Source: Caryophanales bacterium
GTDB lineage: Bacteria; Bacillota; Bacilli; Exiguobacteriales; Exiguobacteriaceae
Assembly: GCA_902363455.1 (NCBI GenBank)
Contig: CABJAC010000004.1
Coordinates: forward strand, 124,001 to 188,000
Length of the DNA stretch: 64,000 bases
Direction: 5' to 3'
The notes below the pieces were generated by a model. That model did not search any database and was not told the DNA's origin. It saw only the letters and a program-made list of their open reading frames with translations. The position numbers and the translations under genes are program-made. Positions within the stretch are counted from its first letter, which is position 1; each line of letters starts with the position of its first letter. Of this stretch, positions 1 to 9,102 are shown piece after piece.

Positions 1-624
1 ATATACCCGATTTGATGTCGCAATCGCCCCTTGGCGTAACTGAACTTCGGCAATTGCCTGTTCCGTCTGCGGATCGGTGATTGCAACCTTCCACGGTTGT
101 GTATCCGACCAGACGATGACATCGCCTCCCGCCTCAATCAAACCACGCGGTTGTTTTTTTCGTAACCGTTGTGCCGCGAGCATCGCCGCCGCACCTTTTC
201 CGATGCCGCCTAAATCAATCGCGCCGTGACTCACTCGTGTCACGTCGCATCCTTCAATCACAAACGGACTGCTCTCGGGTGGGGCTTCGATCCTGAATGA
301 TTCAACGGCGCGTTGGAATGGAAACGAGCGGTCGTATCCATTTGCCTGTTGCTGTTCCAGTAAAAAGGGCGAAAAATACTGCTCCGTCTGTTCAAAGTAA
401 CGAATTGCACGTTGCAATAAGCGTGCAAGCGGTAACGAGACACTGAGCGATTCTCCGACCATCAGACCATTTAATCGACTGACCTCACTCGCCGGATCAA
501 ATCGTGACCATTGACGGTCGACATATTGAAAAAATTGTTGGATGGTTTTCCATTCGTCCTCTGTGATCGGTTGATCGGTGACGAACCGAATGGTGTTATG
601 CATCGCATACAACTGACGATTCAT
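1..624 (-). CDS. apbE: FAD:protein FMN transferase ApbE (partial, C-terminus outside window)
   Basis: ApbE proteins move FMN from FAD onto a Thr/Ser of extracytoplasmic redox proteins. Reading leftward from an ATG at 624, 208 codons are open to the window edge without a stop; the family is usually about 300 residues, so roughly a third is missing. The conserved stretch DLGGIGKG (about residue 140) and the AGGDV motif after it are the family signature. No signal peptide is obvious. The start is fixed by an AGGAGG site that lies at the 3' end of the upstream gene, 13 nt away, so the two are one operon. Operon promoter and likely control are described at 989-1006. Confidence 0.88.
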   Translation of the reverse strand, partial: MNRQLYAMHNTIRFVTDQPITEDEWKTIQQFFQYVDRQWSRFDPASEVSRLNGLMVGESLSVSLPLARLLQRAIRYFEQTEQYFSPFLLEQQQANGYDRSFPFQRAVESFRIEAPPESSPFVIEGCDVTRVSHGAIDLGGIGKGAAAMLAAQRLRKKQPRGLIEAGGDVIVWSDTQPWKVAITDPQTEQAIAEVQLRQGAIATSNRVY

Positions 625-637
625 TCCGATTCACCTC

Positions 638-943
638 CTATTTCGAATGACTGGACTGTCCGTCACTTCCACCGCTCGGCTGTTCAAAACCGGATGTTTC
701 GTTGCTCTGCCACCCTTCATCATCGTCCTCCTCATAACTGTCCTCATCTGATTCACCCCACTCATCGTCATCACCTTGCGACGGCTGACTTGGAATCGTC
801 GTTTCATCGAAATAGGAATCGCCTGTATTAACGGGGTTCGTCGGCTGATCATTCGAAGCGACACTCAATTGACCGATTGCAAGACCTAAAAAGACACTGC
901 TGCTCAGACCAACAATCCACTTCGCAAATGGTTTTGGTTTCAT
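638..943 (-). CDS. Small exported acidic low-complexity protein
   Basis: 101 residues. An N-terminal hydrophobic segment (about residues 9-30) works as a signal peptide or membrane anchor. The rest is almost entirely Asp, Glu, Ser, Gly and Gln, with acidic runs at about residues 55-78. I do not recognise a family. It sits directly upstream of apbE with 13 nt between them. It could be an extracytoplasmic partner or flavinylation substrate, but no clear flavinylation motif is visible, so that is only suggestion. An alternative is a metal- or calcium-binding sensor for the divergent two-component system. Confidence 0.75.
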   Translation of the reverse strand: MKPKPFAKWIVGLSSSVFLGLAIGQLSVASNDQPTNPVNTGDSYFDETTIPSQPSQGDDDEWGESDEDSYEEDDDEGWQSNETSGFEQPSGGSDGQSSHSK

Positions 944-988
944 TGTCCCTGCTCCTCTCGTTTCCTGTTATCTTTACTGTATCGATAA

Positions 989-1006
989 AAACTGACAACT
1001 AGCTGA
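989..1006 (-). promoter_or_regulatory. Predicted response-regulator operator/promoter for the acidic protein-apbE operon
   Basis: Read on the minus strand this is TCAGCTAGTTGTCAG plus TTT, about 46-63 nt before the start at 943. The same core, TCAGCTA-NN-TGTCAG, lies in the same orientation 53-70 nt before the gene at 2972. In both places the octamer TACAGTAA follows exactly 25 nt after the first T of the core. A second half copy, GACAACT, repeats at 994-1000 and 1008-1014, which could serve the divergent regulator gene. Confidence 0.6.
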
Positions 1007-1054
1007 TGACAACTGTGGGATAATAAGAAAAACAACGGGACAGGGGGAATGAGA

Positions 1055-1732
1055 ATGCGTGTCTTGATCGCAGAAGATGATGAACGTCTAGCTAAAATGT
1101 TACGCCTTCATCTTGAACGCGCCGGTTACCAGGTGGATGTCGCCCATGACGGGGTAACCGCCATCGAACAGTGTCAGACGTTTCGTTATGATTTGCTTGT
1201 CCTCGACTGGATGATGCCGTATAAAAGTGGCATTGAAGTGGCAACCGAGTTGCGGGGGGAGCGTTTCGAGGGCGGTATCCTGATGTTGACGGCACGCGAT
1301 ACGGAAATTGATTTGGTCCACGGACTCGATAGCGGCGCCGATGATTATCTCGTCAAACCGTTTCAGGCAAACGAGCTGTTAGCCAGACTCCGTGCCCTGA
1401 GCCGCCGTCAGAAAAAAGCATTCATCTCGATCGTTTCTTATCAAGAACTGGAACTGGATATCACGACGCAGACGATTTCCTATGCCCACCATCCCCTTGA
1501 TTTAACGCGCCGTGAGTTCGAGTTTTTATCCTTGTTGCTGCGTCGTCCGGAACAGGTCATGGGGCGGGAATTGATCATTGAAATCGTCTGGGGCATCGGG
1601 GCCGATATTACTGACAATGCGCTCGATGCACTTGTTCGGCTTGTCCGCAAAAAACTGGATGCAGCAGGTGCACCTTCCTTGATCAAAACCGTCCGCGGTT
1701 TCGGCTACCGGCTCGGTGATCCACATGCTTGA
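1055..1732 (+). CDS. OmpR-family response regulator
   Basis: 225-residue DNA-binding response regulator: receiver domain in the first ~120 residues (acidic pocket EDD near residue 8, phospho-acceptor Asp at about 51 in VLDWMM, conserved Lys in LVKPF) and a C-terminal winged helix ending in TVRGFGYRL. An ATG six bases earlier (1049) is possible, but the GGGGG ribosome site is only 2 nt from it and 8 nt from the ATG at 1055, so I prefer 1055. It overlaps the kinase gene by 8 nt. The matching operators at 989-1006 and 2902-2919 on both sides of the pair suggest it controls both flanking operons. Confidence 0.93.
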   Translation: MRVLIAEDDERLAKMLRLHLERAGYQVDVAHDGVTAIEQCQTFRYDLLVLDWMMPYKSGIEVATELRGERFEGGILMLTARDTEIDLVHGLDSGADDYLVKPFQANELLARLRALSRRQKKAFISIVSYQELELDITTQTISYAHHPLDLTRREFEFLSLLLRRPEQVMGRELIIEIVWGIGADITDNALDALVRLVRKKLDAAGAPSLIKTVRGFGYRLGDPHA

Positions 1733-2894
1733 GACGATCCGGAAACGCTTGACGTTATTGTTTAGCGGCACGTTTTTATTATTGTTGATTTTGATTTTAA
1801 TCGGGGTCTATTTTACGACCGCCCGGTTGCTGGATCAAACGGAGTTGAACCAATTAAAGTCGGTCTCGAATCGTGATCTGTTCGAGCGTATCGAACACGG
1901 GGAAGATCGTGTGATCCGGGATCCGATTTATTTTCAACTCTTTAATCCGGATGGGACGGAACGCTATACACGACTGCCCGACGACCTGCCAAAAGAACAT
2001 GTCCGAAAATTCCTGGATTCAAACAAAGTGACCGAAAAGATTTTTTCCGACGGTCAGCATTTTTTGCTTTATCAACGGACCAGTCCGGAAGGATCCACCC
2101 TTCTCTTGAAGGATATCTCCGCGACAGAAGATACGTTGGAACGGTTGATTGCTATGTTAGCCGGTATCACGCTTCTTTCGACTCTCGTCTTGATGGGAAT
2201 CAGCTATATCTTGGCCGGTCGTTCCGTCGTCCCCGTCCAACAAGCATTTGACCGGCAACGCCGATTTACGTCAGATGCTTCCCATGAACTACGGACTCCG
2301 CTGACGATTTTATACAGTGGAATCGAGTTACTCGAAACTGAACCGCTCAGCACGGAAGGACAGGCGATCTTATCGGATTTGAAAGCAGAGACGGCCTCGA
2401 TGCAATATTTAGTCTCTGATTTACTGTTGTTGGCCCGAGAAGGTCAACCCGGACCTACGAATCCAGTCGATTTGAGTACACTCGTCACGCAGACTTCTGA
2501 ACGTTTTAAACATACGTTAGTCAATCGGACATTGTCTTTAACTATCACACCTCATCTGTTTATCAAGGGAGACCCTAACCAATTGATTCGTTTGTTGACG
2601 ATTTTTTTAGAAAATGCAGCGGCCTACAGCGATTCTGATATTGAGGTTCAACTGCAGAACACGTCAACTCATGTTCAATTGATCATTGCCGATCAAGGAA
2701 TCGGCATTCCACCCGAAAATCAAGCTAAAATATTCGAACGTTTTTACCGTGGCGACCACTCTCGTCATGGTACCGGAACCGGTTTGGGTCTCGCCATCGC
2801 CAAATCCATTGCCGATGCTCACGAAGCTACTATCTTCGTTGAATCGACACCCCAAACAGGAACACGTTTCACGATTCTTTTTCCAATTCCTTGA
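1725..2894 (+). CDS. Sensor histidine kinase
   Basis: 389-residue membrane kinase. Two transmembrane segments (about 8-30 and 140-162) bracket a ~110-residue extracytoplasmic sensor region of no family I recognise. The dimerisation/phospho-acceptor box SHELRTPLT puts the His at residue 187; N, G1, F and G2 boxes follow (ENAAAYS, DQGIGIP, FERFYRGD, GTGLGLAI). The ATG at 1725 overlaps the regulator stop; an in-frame GTG at 1716 is the alternative. Cognate partner is clearly the regulator just upstream. The position between an ApbE operon and a DUF2231 gene suggests an envelope redox or stress signal, which is inference. Confidence 0.92.
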   Translation: MLETIRKRLTLLFSGTFLLLLILILIGVYFTTARLLDQTELNQLKSVSNRDLFERIEHGEDRVIRDPIYFQLFNPDGTERYTRLPDDLPKEHVRKFLDSNKVTEKIFSDGQHFLLYQRTSPEGSTLLLKDISATEDTLERLIAMLAGITLLSTLVLMGISYILAGRSVVPVQQAFDRQRRFTSDASHELRTPLTILYSGIELLETEPLSTEGQAILSDLKAETASMQYLVSDLLLLAREGQPGPTNPVDLSTLVTQTSERFKHTLVNRTLSLTITPHLFIKGDPNQLIRLLTIFLENAAAYSDSDIEVQLQNTSTHVQLIIADQGIGIPPENQAKIFERFYRGDHSRHGTGTGLGLAIAKSIADAHEATIFVESTPQTGTRFTILFPIP

Positions 2895-2901
2895 TGGACC
2901 G

Positions 2902-2919
2902 TCAGCTAACTGTCAGATA
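2902..2919 (+). promoter_or_regulatory. Predicted response-regulator operator/promoter for the DUF2231 gene
   Basis: TCAGCTAACTGTCAG followed by ATA, matching the site at 989-1006 in sequence, orientation and distance to the controlled gene. TACAGTAA follows at the same 25-nt spacing and a TATATT hexamer lies at 2938-2943. A site over the -35 region fits activation by an OmpR-type regulator. Confidence 0.6.
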
Positions 2920-2971
2920 ACCTCGTTACAGTAAGAGTATATTCTTATTACTGATCGAGGAGGTTTTTCAT

Positions 2972-3385
2972 ATGTTAGCTGGTGTACCGCTCCATCCATT
3001 ACTCGTCCACGCTCCAATCGCGCTGTTACTGTTTGCGACCGTTCTGTTGGTATTCAGTTTGAAATGGGTGCAGTTAAAATTATTTGTCCTAATCACTTTA
3101 TTTGCAGGTCTTCTGTCTGGTGTCGCCGCTTACTTATCCGGTGACGGCGCAGAAGAGTATGCAGAAACCAATCTCAGCAGTGTAACGCACGCTGCCATCG
3201 AGAATCATGAACACTTTGCGTTATTCAGCCTTGTCGCTTTTGGAATCGCGTTTGTCTTTTTGCTGCTTGGCTACCGTTCGAACAAAAAAACGATGCTCAT
3301 GTTGAGCCTGCTCGTCGCCGTCGTCGGAAGCGGTTTACTCGCTTATACCGGTCATCTCGGCGGACAAATGGTTTACGCCAAATAA
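2972..3385 (+). CDS. DUF2231 family membrane protein
   Basis: 137 residues with four predicted transmembrane helices (about 10-28, 36-54, 78-97, 107-127). The opening motif HPLLVHAPIALL is typical of DUF2231 proteins, in which conserved histidines may bind haem or metal. Its function is not established. It follows the histidine kinase by 77 nt but has its own operator/promoter, shared with the divergent apbE operon, so I place it in the same regulon. The AGGAGG site 8 nt upstream fixes the start. Confidence 0.8.
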   Translation: MLAGVPLHPLLVHAPIALLLFATVLLVFSLKWVQLKLFVLITLFAGLLSGVAAYLSGDGAEEYAETNLSSVTHAAIENHEHFALFSLVAFGIAFVFLLLGYRSNKKTMLMLSLLVAVVGSGLLAYTGHLGGQMVYAK

Positions 3386-3442: not shown

Positions 3443-4675
3443 TTATTTACGATGGGCACGTCCTGGACGGCGGTTGTTCGAGCGGCGTGTATTGCCACGA
3501 CCTTCTGCAGGAGCCTTTGTTCCTTTGCTTTGATCATGTTGCGCACGAATCATCTCGTCCGATAACTCGACGACGATTGGTGTCACTTCGACCCCAAGTT
3601 CGCGTTCCATGTCGCGGAAACTCCGACCGTCTCTTGGTGTGACGATTGAGATCGCCACGCCGTCGTTCCCGGCACGTCCCGTCCGACCAATCCGGTGGAC
3701 GTAACTTTCGGCATCATCCGGTAAATCGTAGTTGAAGACGTGTGTGACACCCGTGACGTCAAGACCACGTGACGCAACATCCGTCGCGATCAAAAACGGT
3801 GTTTTGCCTTGGTAGAACTTCGCCATTGCCTTTTCACGTTTTCCTTGTGTCAAACCACCGTGCAATTCATCCGTCGGATATCCTTGCATCTGTAACTCTT
3901 CGTTCAGCTTGCTGACACGACGTTGTGTCCGGCAGAAGATGATGGCGGCATAAGGACGCATCTCGTCAAGCATCGTCCGAAGTGTCGCTTGTTTCCGGCG
4001 GTCTGTCGTTTCGACGACGAATTGTTCGATGGCATCAACCGTTACTTTTTCGGCTTCGACTTGGACTTCAATCGGATCACGGAGATACGTTTTTGCGAGT
4101 TGCTCGACTTTCGGTGGCATCGTCGCCGATAACATGACGAATTGACGATCAACAGGTGCTGCCGCGATGATATCTTCGATTTCCGGTAAAAATCCGATTT
4201 GCAGCATTTGATCGGCTTCATCCAAGACCAGCGTCTTCAGTTCACTCAAATCAAGTGTTCCCCGTCCGACATGATCTAAAATCCGACCTGGTGTCCCGAT
4301 GATGATTTGCGGCATCCGGCCGAGACGTTGGATTTGTTTGAACACATCTTGTCCACCATACACCGCAAGTGCACGGATGTCTTCCATGTTCCGGATCAAC
4401 TTGTGTGTTTCGTCTGCAATCTGACGCGCGAGTTCTCGTGTCGGTGCGACGATTAACGCTTGAACGGTTTTGCTCTCTAAATCGATTTGTTCGAGGATTG
4501 GTAATAAGAACGCAAGCGTCTTCCCTGTCCCGGTTTGTGCTTTTCCTATTAAGTCACGACCCGCCAGTAAATGCGGAATCGCCTGTTCCTGAATCGGTGT
4601 CGGTTGTTTAATGCCTTGTTTTTGTAATTTTTTCACCCATTGTTCTTGAATGTGTAATGCTTCAAATGTTGACAT
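3443..4675 (-). CDS. DEAD-box ATP-dependent RNA helicase
   Basis: 410 residues with the full SF2 set: Q motif (PTPIQEQAI), motif I AQTGTGKT (about 45-52), PTRELA, DEADQ, SAT, and motif VI HRIGRTGR near 330. The C-terminal ~35 residues are basic and Arg/Asn-rich, as in RNA-chaperone helicases of cold and stress responses. It is not an obvious CshA or CshB orthologue, so I give no symbol. The second DEAD-box gene in the window (51722-53167) is the DbpA type. The leader upstream holds three consensus DnaA boxes. The ATG at 4675 has AGGAGG 6 nt upstream. Confidence 0.93.
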   Translation of the reverse strand: MSTFEALHIQEQWVKKLQKQGIKQPTPIQEQAIPHLLAGRDLIGKAQTGTGKTLAFLLPILEQIDLESKTVQALIVAPTRELARQIADETHKLIRNMEDIRALAVYGGQDVFKQIQRLGRMPQIIIGTPGRILDHVGRGTLDLSELKTLVLDEADQMLQIGFLPEIEDIIAAAPVDRQFVMLSATMPPKVEQLAKTYLRDPIEVQVEAEKVTVDAIEQFVVETTDRRKQATLRTMLDEMRPYAAIIFCRTQRRVSKLNEELQMQGYPTDELHGGLTQGKREKAMAKFYQGKTPFLIATDVASRGLDVTGVTHVFNYDLPDDAESYVHRIGRTGRAGNDGVAISIVTPRDGRSFRDMERELGVEVTPIVVELSDEMIRAQHDQSKGTKAPAEGRGNTRRSNNRRPGRAHRK

Positions 4676-4691
4676 AGTATCCTCCTAAAAA

Positions 4692-4751
4692 TTATCCACA
4701 GAAAAAAGCTGTGGATAACCTGCTTCGAATCGACAAAAACAGTTATCCACA
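4692..4751. promoter_or_regulatory. DnaA-box cluster in the helicase leader
   Basis: Three perfect copies of TTATCCACA within 60 nt: 4692-4700 (+), 4710-4718 (minus) and 4743-4751 (+). The first two form an inverted repeat around an A-run. A TATACT extended -10 just upstream on the minus strand would put all three in the 5' untranslated leader of the DEAD-box gene. Exact 9-mers this dense are not expected by chance. Confidence 0.7.
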
Positions 4752-6711: not shown

Positions 6712-9102
6712 TTAACGGTGGATCCAGACAGCTCCTGCAGAGTTATCTTTCGCTTCACCGATGACTTGAATTTTAAGACCGTTGTTCGGAAGCAGTTTTC
6801 CTGCATCCGGGATCAACTGATTGATGTACGATTTTGAATCGTCAAACTTCGTGACACCTGCAAGTCCTTTATAGTCGTAAAGACCGCGAGTCGGCGAATC
6901 GATGACCCAAGCCGGTGCTTTATCATAGCTGAAAGCAGCATCCGCCACTTGGTAACGTGTGCTTCCTGCAACGACCGGTTGTCCTTTAAGCGTTCCGACG
7001 ATGGCTTCAGGATGCGAATCGACGACACCGAGGAAACCTTCACCCGGGTGAACACCAACCCAGTTATCCGTAAAGCTGCTATCGGCATACCATACGACGA
7101 GACCTGTGTTGTATTTGACGCCACGTGCATGCTCAAGCGCTTTGTCTGAGCCTGCATAGTTCCGCCATTCGAGGTAGTATGTGTTATCCGCATAGCTGAA
7201 ACCGTCCGAAGCAATGAATCCGTCTAATTTAAATTTCGGTGTACCTTCTGCATCGTCTTCAAAGACGACTTTTCCGTCGACCGTCAATTTCGCGTTATCA
7301 AGTGCGAATCCGTCGAGGGCAAGACCAGCATCTCCTGTGTAGTCGAATGTCAATGTGACTTTTTTGCCGGCAAATTCACTGAGGTCATACGATTTGTCGA
7401 CCCATGCACCTTTTGAAGATTCTGCACGTTGATCGCCGTCTGTATCTTCATCACCAATTACATCAATGACTTTTGACACGCCATCAGCTGTAGCTGTGAC
7501 TTCCAGGAAGTCGTAATTAAATTCAACATCAAAGTATGCTTTGTAGTCGAATTTTGCTGCTTTTGCAGCTGTCAAGTCAAATTCAGGTGATGTCATCGAT
7601 GTGTGGAGATCATTTCCTTTTGTACTGTAGTAATATTTTTTCCCGAAGGCCGGTGCGATTCCTTTGACCGGTTTTTTCGGAAGATTCACTTTGATGATAC
7701 CCGGATTTTTTGACTTTGTGACACTTTGGTCGAGGTATGAAGCCGTTCCTGCTGATCCGAGAGAATCAAAGTCAACGTTTTCGATATTCGCCCAGTTTCC
7801 ACCCATCAACGTTTGGAAGAACTCTTTGTTTTGTGGTGAGAAACTCGTCGGTTCTGTTCCAGCTACGTTACCATTCCAACTTCCGCCGCTCATGATGGAC
7901 CATGAAGCAACCGGTTCACCTTGACCCGTATACTGTGTATCGTACTCATCCGGAAGACCTAAATCGTGACCAAATTCGTGTGCAAATACTCCGACTGCAC
8001 CGTCTTCCGGTTGGACAGTGTAATCATACGCCGCCATCTTTCCGCCCCAGTTCGTTGAGTTTGAAGTGGTGTTTTCAACCGGGTATACTCCGCCGAGTGT
8101 CCAACGGTGTGACCAGATTGCATCGTCACCAAGCGTACCACCGCCTGCTTCCTGACCTGTACCTGCATGAATGATCATCAAGTGATCCACAATGCCATCC
8201 GGCTCGTTGAAGTTGCCGTCTCCATCAAGATCATACTGATCAAACGTATCGTAATCAGCTAAATTAATACCGGCTTTGACCGCTGCATTTAACGTGTCTT
8301 TGACAAGATCTCGTGGTCCTTTTGGTCCAAGATTATCATTCCCACCATTTGGACTGTCTGCACCATAATCTTTAGCTGTTCCCGGAACCGTCAACCAATC
8401 AGAAACTTTCCCGTCAACCGTATAACTTCCACCTGATTGCTCTTCGTAATATTGTTTAAACGTTTTGACTTTCTCTCCGTTAAAGAGTTTGAACTCTTGA
8501 TCACCGAACATCAATTTTTCATAATGCTCTTTATTGAAGTTGTCTGCATACATATAGCCGTCTTCCTGTACGACATTGTTATGCTTAAAGTCGCTGTACT
8601 CTGTTAACAGAACCAGTACTTTGTCCGAGCGAACAGCACCATTGTATGGTGATTGCTTGGCTTTATCGACTTTGACAAATCCATCTTTTTTCCCTTTTTT
8701 GTAGTTGTTATGGTTTTTCTTGAGTTGTTTTGCCAGTTGATCTTTTTGTTTCGTTAAAAAGTCTTTTGTTTTTTTATCGAACTTTTCTTCTTTACCTGAT
8801 TCGTGATCATGGTCTTCATGATCAACTGTCGGTTTTCCATTAGCCTTTTTGTCCAAGTACTTCTGAACGGCTTGTTGTTTTGCTTCTGCTGATGCTGCTT
8901 TTGAGACGACCCCACGTTTTTCAAGCACTTTCAATAAGCGTTCCTGATCGACTGTATTTAAGTCCATCGGTGCACCGGCTGCTGCTTTTTCAGCAGCTTC
9001 CACAGATTTTACCTTCCCACCAGGTAAAACTGGACCAACGACAAATGCAGCAGCCGTGATTCCGGATAAGACCGCTAAGCTGAGTTGTTTCTTTTTTCCC
9101 AC
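6712..9102 (-). CDS. Secreted M6-family metalloprotease (immune inhibitor A type)
   Basis: 796 residues. A signal peptide (KKKQ, then a hydrophobic stretch to about residue 30) is followed by a propeptide with a charged Lys/Asp/His-rich segment (about 75-150). The M6 catalytic domain carries the zinc motif [14 protein letters not shown] (first His at 375). C-terminal domains include a MAM/carbohydrate-binding-like region (about 500-620), as in InhA of the Bacillus cereus group, which degrades host or environmental proteins. Several Asp-rich stretches may bind calcium. Stands alone with its own terminator. The upstream region shares a motif with the M4 protease gene (9187-9217 and 11375-11405), hinting at joint control. 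Confidence 0.93.

Follow-up and report, generated by a model that had tools for sequence, protein, structure and literature searches.

Known ApbE flavin transferases attach FMN to the last residue of a seven-residue target motif, Dxx[ST]GA[ST], which performs best as a tag at a protein terminus (PMC12052999). The closest described counterparts of the locus reported here are, in the passages of PMC8238504 that concern them, the MsrQ-like flavinylation systems, which are mainly actinobacterial; in these, apbE adjoins a gene for a ferric-reductase-like membrane protein (PF01794), and electrons have been proposed to cross the membrane to a flavinylated protein. The same passages state a selection rule by which the target gene carries a signal peptide or lipidation site. 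They also describe orphan apbE genes without FMN_bind that have a candidate substrate gene next to them (DUF2271 and DUF3570, which keep [S/T]GA[S/T] and were shown to be flavinylated), and they note that genomes with apbE but without a known substrate remain. The passages drawn on from PMC11334425 add Flavodoxin_4, FMN_red and DUF4405 to what is known; its FMN_red proteins, mainly from Firmicutes, are linked to ApbE and carry a candidate motif on a C-terminal extension.

The module described here, found in Bacilli, shares with the MsrQ-like systems of PMC8238504 the neighbourhood of apbE and a PF01794-type gene and, by proposal, the electron path. Unlike those systems as the passages present them, it has a small tail protein and no FMN-binding domain protein that we could find, an ApbE without an evident signal peptide, and a dedicated response regulator (RR) and sensor histidine kinase (HK) together with a conserved promoter box. 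Since the typical FMN-binding domain is missing, we set the module apart from the MsrQ-like members, as a variant that would work alike. It resembles the orphan apbE loci in having a candidate substrate gene adjacent and no FMN_bind; whereas DUF2271 and DUF3570 keep their motif, its heptad is C-terminal, lacks Gly-Ala and is a candidate site. It resembles the FMN_red proteins in carrying a candidate motif at a C-terminal end linked to ApbE, and differs from them in that the tail protein has one membrane segment and a linker instead of a flavin-binding fold. Neither the tail family nor a two-component regulator is mentioned in the passages of PMC8238504 and PMC11334425, and no description of the module was found among open-licence papers.

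The module genes lie on both strands of the first 3.4 kb of the window, the 64,000-nt stretch of an Exiguobacteriaceae contig that was analysed, and were recognised from open reading frames and Pfam profiles. On the minus strand, the tail gene (638..943) encodes a small membrane-anchored acidic protein of 101 residues ending in DGQSSHSK, a candidate ApbE substrate, and is followed by the 5' part of apbE (1..624, 208 codons; Pfam ApbE 98.5 bits), which continues past the window edge. The full apbE and the gene downstream of it were read in genome G001 (locus L044), where a gene for a 191-aa ferric-reductase-like membrane protein lies 3' of apbE, completing the operon order tail protein, apbE, ferric-reductase-like protein. 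On the plus strand follow the OmpR-family RR (1049..1732, 227 aa; Response_reg and Trans_reg_C), the HK (1725..2894; HisKA and HATPase_c; its query sequences started at codon 2, position 1728) and a DUF2231 membrane protein (2972..3385, 137 aa; Pfam DUF2231 43.9 bits) predicted to be a four-helix bundle. Further into the window, at 6712-9102 on the minus strand, a 796-aa open frame carries an HEFGH motif and looks like a secreted M6-type metalloprotease.

In 15 of 19 genus genomes the arrangement is unchanged: the operon in this order on one side, RR-HK-DUF2231 with a DEAD-box gene on the other. In G016 the stretch from inside the ferric-reductase-like gene to the middle of HK is deleted (locus L059, 12237-13199), and box 2 (described below) and DUF2231 are retained; in G003 the deletion runs from mid-apbE to mid-DUF2231 (L153, about 4144-4700). 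These are two distinct natural deletions in single Exiguobacterium genomes, and both take out the regulator and most of the module. In G012 and G013, apbE and DUF2231 had no match. The module locus is the sole ApbE match in each of 15 genus genomes, and G003 has a fragment.

Among 398 Bacilli genomes the ApbE profile found a match in 30, of which 16 are Exiguobacterium; within the order it matched 16 of 38, with none among the 19 genomes of the sister genus. We assembled 41 loci outside the genus with related ApbEs (489 kb), hereafter the far loci: all 15 that the class search gave outside Exiguobacterium (L141-L152, L249, L250 and L251), 20 chosen among 38 matches (L223-L242) and the remaining loci (L243-L248). 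They are not independent, as many come from one family (f3). By profiles made from a few members each, all 41 contain ApbE, 39 a ferric-reductase-like gene adjoining apbE (no match in L148 and L229), 37 both RR and HK (no match in L152, L223, L247 and L251), and one DUF2231. An Asp/Glu-rich, secreted-looking protein with a Cu_amine_oxidN1 domain, found in 27 of the 41, heads the operon (L142:6942-7586, L145:6919-7593 and relatives) and does not occur at the module locus in Exiguobacterium. A second small membrane protein, MP2, with an acidic N-terminal part and weak ferric-reductase similarity, is present in eight (for example L142:2364-2912, L146:2727-3266 and L149:2756-3304).

The full ApbE of G001 scored 133.4 bits against the ApbE domain (cut-off 25.6), and its profile matches solved ApbEs. 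The D..T of the ADALST-type motif provides the metal ligands of ApbE, and alignment placed E..K at this position in the present branch. The pattern [AGC]E[VI]xxK occurs in the ApbEs of 37 of the 41 far loci; L151 reads ADVWAK, L231 reads SEVGAK, and the ApbEs of L149 and L250 are not covered by the pattern. By hydropathy, none of the 11 ApbEs checked has a hydrophobic N-terminus, so enzyme and tail protein may lie on different sides of the membrane.

The sequence-only reading had called the product of the first minus-strand gene an exported acidic protein. Gene and acidity were right, and the protein itself proved to be a membrane-anchored tail protein: a hydrophobic segment near residue 10 is followed by 1 basic and 21 acidic residues. 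Proteins of this family begin with a basic N-terminal stretch, cross the membrane once (KWxxG...) and continue through a linker of variable, often acidic sequence to a conserved C-terminal end. A C-terminal [DE]xx[ST]xx[ST] is present in 96 of 107 homologues, a count inflated by relatedness since 59 of the 107 are identical at this end (ERKTKRT); the heptad lies one residue before the end in four (Exiguobacterium), only [ST]xx[ST] is kept in four, and neither is found in three. Elsewhere in the tail proteins the heptad fits 51 of 8522 positions. Seven f22 tail proteins from seven loci (L243, L244 and L246-L250), 218-278 residues long, keep their ends (KWxKWKxGG ... SHTKSRRS and similar) despite the long linker, with the leading acid missing. 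The tail proteins were chosen by a rough rule that gave spurious frames for L247, L248 and L251; those of L247 and L248 were replaced by the f22 sequences just described, and no tail protein was found in L251.

Because known ApbEs modify the last residue of their target motif, we place the proposed FMN site at the terminal Ser/Thr, and because the heptad resembles this motif minus Gly-Ala and the FMN_bind domain (PF04205) was found in none of the 19 Exiguobacterium genomes (4 of 14 control genomes were positive), the tail protein is a candidate FMN acceptor, a role to which we give an even chance. The main competitor, a substantial possibility that we place somewhat below even, is that the regulon is as described and the tail is not an ApbE substrate: its end would then serve recognition by a protease, a PDZ domain or a complex, and ApbE would bind or hydrolyse FAD or modify another protein. 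Three features count against flavinylation of the tail and in favour of this competitor: Gly-Ala, and with it the canonical D-x-x-[S/T]-G-A-[S/T], occurs in none of the listed tails (31 representatives of the 107); the enzyme has E..K for D..T; and it lacks a signal-like N-terminus. To these is added the strongly basic end of most members outside Exiguobacterium. The first is borne out by substitutions at Gly-Ala that left one substrate with about half its flavinylation (PMC12052999, section 8), and the third is softened by the existence of cytosolic ApbEs that do flavinylate (passages of the same paper). The competitor is further opposed by the position of the tail gene immediately upstream of apbE in most loci, by the conservation of the acid and the Ser/Thr residues at heptad positions 1, 4 and 7, and by the lack of an FMN_bind alternative in the 19 genomes.

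The ferric-reductase-like protein scored 27.5 bits against PF01794 in G001, just under the cut-off of 28, and 41.0 bits in L142. Ten aligned members share four invariant His residues, paired at distances of 14 and 13 residues, and this arrangement would fit two b hemes. The model of the DUF2231 protein is a four-helix bundle (mean pLDDT 93.5) with no Foldseek match at E <= 0.001, and the VIA-align rows are generic bundles; its conserved His allow a guess, and we offer it as such, that it might bind heme. Five Exiguobacterium genomes carry six further DUF2231 genes (L077-L082) away from the module locus, and none of these six has TCA-N8-TCA within 200 nt upstream, which suggests that the box goes with the locus rather than with the DUF2231 family. 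The absence of DUF2231 from 40 of the 41 far loci counts against its membership in the module, which would rest mainly on Exiguobacterium.

The two structural promoters share a motif, as the sequence-only reading had noticed. TCAGCTANNTGTCAG occurs exactly at 992-1006 on the minus strand (box 1, TCAGCTAGTTGTCAG) and at 2902-2916 on the plus strand (box 2, TCAGCTAACTGTCAG); the sites were correctly picked out, and the outer limits first given, 989 and 2919, overshoot the motif by 3 nt. Allowing up to three mismatches, the window holds 12 matches against 10.7 expected, and these two are the only exact ones. From the end of the box to the start codon there are 48 nt for the acidic tail protein (ATG 943-941) and 55 nt for DUF2231 (ATG 2972). 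The fixed offset held as well: counted from the first base of the box, TACAGTAA begins 25 nt further on at both sites (981, minus strand; 2927, plus strand). Both promoters thus read TCAG-N7-TCAG, an 11-bp direct repeat, then 10 bp and TAnnnT, the hexamer being TACAGT at 976..981 on the minus strand for the tail-apbE operon and at 2927..2932 on the plus strand for DUF2231.

Alignment demonstrated that every row retains box, 10-bp gap and TAnnnT, 16 of 16 for site 1 (15 genomes and the window) and 17 of 17 for site 2 (16 genomes and the window), so the motif is conserved where the gene order stays. The exact motif gave 13 matches in the 19 same-genus genomes (two each in six, one in G016), all at this locus, and its reversed control gave six scattered matches; this form, found in 7 of 16 and 8 of 17 rows, belongs to the undae-sibiricum-antarcticum part of Exiguobacterium. 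A looser pattern of box and -10 yielded 22 matches in 14 of the 19 genomes, every one at these two promoters, against 0 for the control. Allowing one mismatch gave 63 matches, of which 31 fall here and 32 in other places; the control pattern likewise gave 32, so further regulon members are not seen at this sensitivity. One recurring one-mismatch match (TCATATTCYTGTCAGG...) was not counted as a member, being present also in three genomes devoid of the RR (G003, G012 and G013). Such a one-mismatch relative of the box turns up in several Exiguobacterium genomes, three without the RR among them, and in L155, L164 and L183, near 1501-1531, it overlaps the 5' portion of a long open reading frame.

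TACAGTAA had been considered as a second operator element, and this was rejected: in relatives TAnnnT alone is conserved, with the exact TACAGTAA present in 14 of the 16 site 1 rows and in 3 of the 17 site 2 rows. By itself, with one mismatch, it fits 40 window sites against 24 expected and is merely common. As predicted from these alignments, TACAGTAA (TACAGT) is the -10 hexamer and no operator; outside the genus the -10 consensus leans to TAnAAT. Box 1 also stands in front of the divergent RR gene, a position missing from the earlier reading. The RR-HK promoter has an extended -10, TGGGATAAT, at 1016..1024 on the plus strand (ATTATCCCA on the other strand), conserved in 16 of 16 rows, and box 1 lies, reversed, at about -25 to -40 of it, so that autoregulation is likely and the RR would act on its own divergent promoter.

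The same architecture extends beyond the genus. TCA[GT]-N7-TCA[GT]-N9-11-TAnnnT occurs 65 times in the 41 far loci, whereas 40 dinucleotide shuffles gave 5.65 on average (sd 2.47, maximum 12). With the spacing fixed at 10, period 11 gave 54 matches and periods 8-10 and 12-15 gave 1-10; with the period fixed at 11, spacing 10 gave 54 and spacings 3-9 and 11-18 gave 0-13. Recognised module genes follow 51 of the 65 boxes, one of these (L236, 6412) lying inside coding sequence; of the other 14, seven lie 61-70 nt upstream of a tail gene and seven precede no module gene (two in L145, one each in L146, L149, L233, L241 and L245). Far boxes stand upstream of the structural operon and in many loci also of the RR gene itself; the RR promoters of L147 and L236 have TCAA as first half-site and so fall outside the counted pattern. 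In L142 and L242 boxes precede MP2. The expectation that the box would recur upstream of apbE and DUF2231 relatives was thus borne out for the ApbE operon, and extended to the RR and the second membrane protein; for DUF2231 it concerns one locus, L235, where TCAG-N7-TCAG stands before the gene without a good -10 at 10 bp.

OmpR/PhoB-family regulators bind tandem half-sites about 11 bp apart, and the RR belongs to this family by its Response_reg (96.3 bits) and Trans_reg_C (77.1 bits) domains, both above cut-off. It falls below the cut-offs of the NCBIfam PhoB equivalog TIGR02154 (196.1 against 296.2 bits) and of the best NCBIfam model, RppA (210.2 against 250 bits). A recognition helix NxLDALV[KR]L[VL]R[KR]K is common to most far RRs and Exiguobacterium, with close variants in the RRs of L141, L228, L150, L230 and the f22 loci. 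The best evidence that the RR would read the box is their co-occurrence. A box is present in 36 of the 37 loci with RR and HK, the exception, L151, having an RR with a different recognition helix, and in one of the four without, L247, whose genome (G625) has the RR in L245; L152, L223 and L251 also lack a box. For these non-independent loci, a one-sided Fisher test gave 4.9e-5 with L151 grouped as without the RR and, by hand with the same formula, about 1.5e-3 with L151 grouped as with it. It is therefore highly probable, on this comparative evidence, that the RR reads the boxes. No conserved Cys or His was seen by eye in the HK sensor region of 20 aligned kinases (17 of the 37 loci).

From the promoter geometry we infer that the RR would bind and activate. 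In PhoB-like regulators, a repeat at -35 at a fixed distance from the -10 is the geometry of activation, and the two structural promoters resemble such PhoB/OmpR-type promoters, the 11-bp direct repeat replacing the -35 with the -10 about 10 bp on; the likeness to PhoB ends at the sub-threshold PhoB score and at a regulon that, as found, is unrelated to phosphate. Use of the boxes by the RR as a repressor, or in a mixed mode with one promoter activated and RR-HK repressed, would be in keeping with the divergent RR promoter, whose -35 zone is overlapped by box 1 and which has a good extended -10 itself, and is unlikely given that at both structural promoters the repeat takes the place of the -35, a fixed 10 bp from the -10. 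That a different OmpR-type regulator reads the boxes, the adjacent RR-HK being a passenger, is more improbable still: although box 2 survives in G016 without this RR, which also counts against the RR as reader, and TGTCA-type repeats resemble those of the E. coli Pho box, boxes and RR co-occur as above, the RR gene itself is preceded by boxes in other families, and the 19 Exiguobacterium genomes hold no strict match of box and -10 elsewhere.

Taken together, the conserved boxes and gene order support the original proposal of a regulon shared by the two promoters, which needs the ferric-reductase-like gene added to it and TACAGTAA reassigned to the -10. In the mechanism we favour, phosphorylated RR would bind the 11-bp repeats head to tail in the -35 position and recruit RNA polymerase to the -10 hexamer 10 bp downstream, turning on the operon for the tail protein, ApbE and the ferric-reductase-like protein as well as the DUF2231 gene; with action at its own divergent promoter, three promoters would be involved if it is autoregulated. 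The ferric-reductase-like protein would pass electrons across the membrane via two hemes, ApbE would load FMN onto the anchored tail protein in its C-terminal Ser/Thr region, the flavinylated tail would act as a tethered flavin carrier, and DUF2231 may be an accessory membrane protein. That the products form an envelope electron-transfer module is probable; the whole explanation, an RR-switched flavin/heme electron-transfer module with the tail as FMN carrier, we hold to be somewhat less so, though still the better bet. More tentatively, and just short of even, we suggest a general form: an ApbE branch with a changed metal site (E..K) and no evident signal peptide would flavinylate the extreme C-terminus of a tethered tail, at a non-canonical heptad, typically [DE]xx[ST][RK][RK][ST], and a flavin on a tether of about 50 to more than 200 residues would trade electrons with the diheme protein, as part of an RR-HK regulon found across several Bacilli families.

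The module offers a candidate substrate family with a candidate site of modification, together with a dedicated regulator whose operator is sharply defined. DUF2231, a family of unknown function, would be tied to a redox regulon in Exiguobacterium. If this reading is true, the question of what orphan apbE genes act on would be answered in part.
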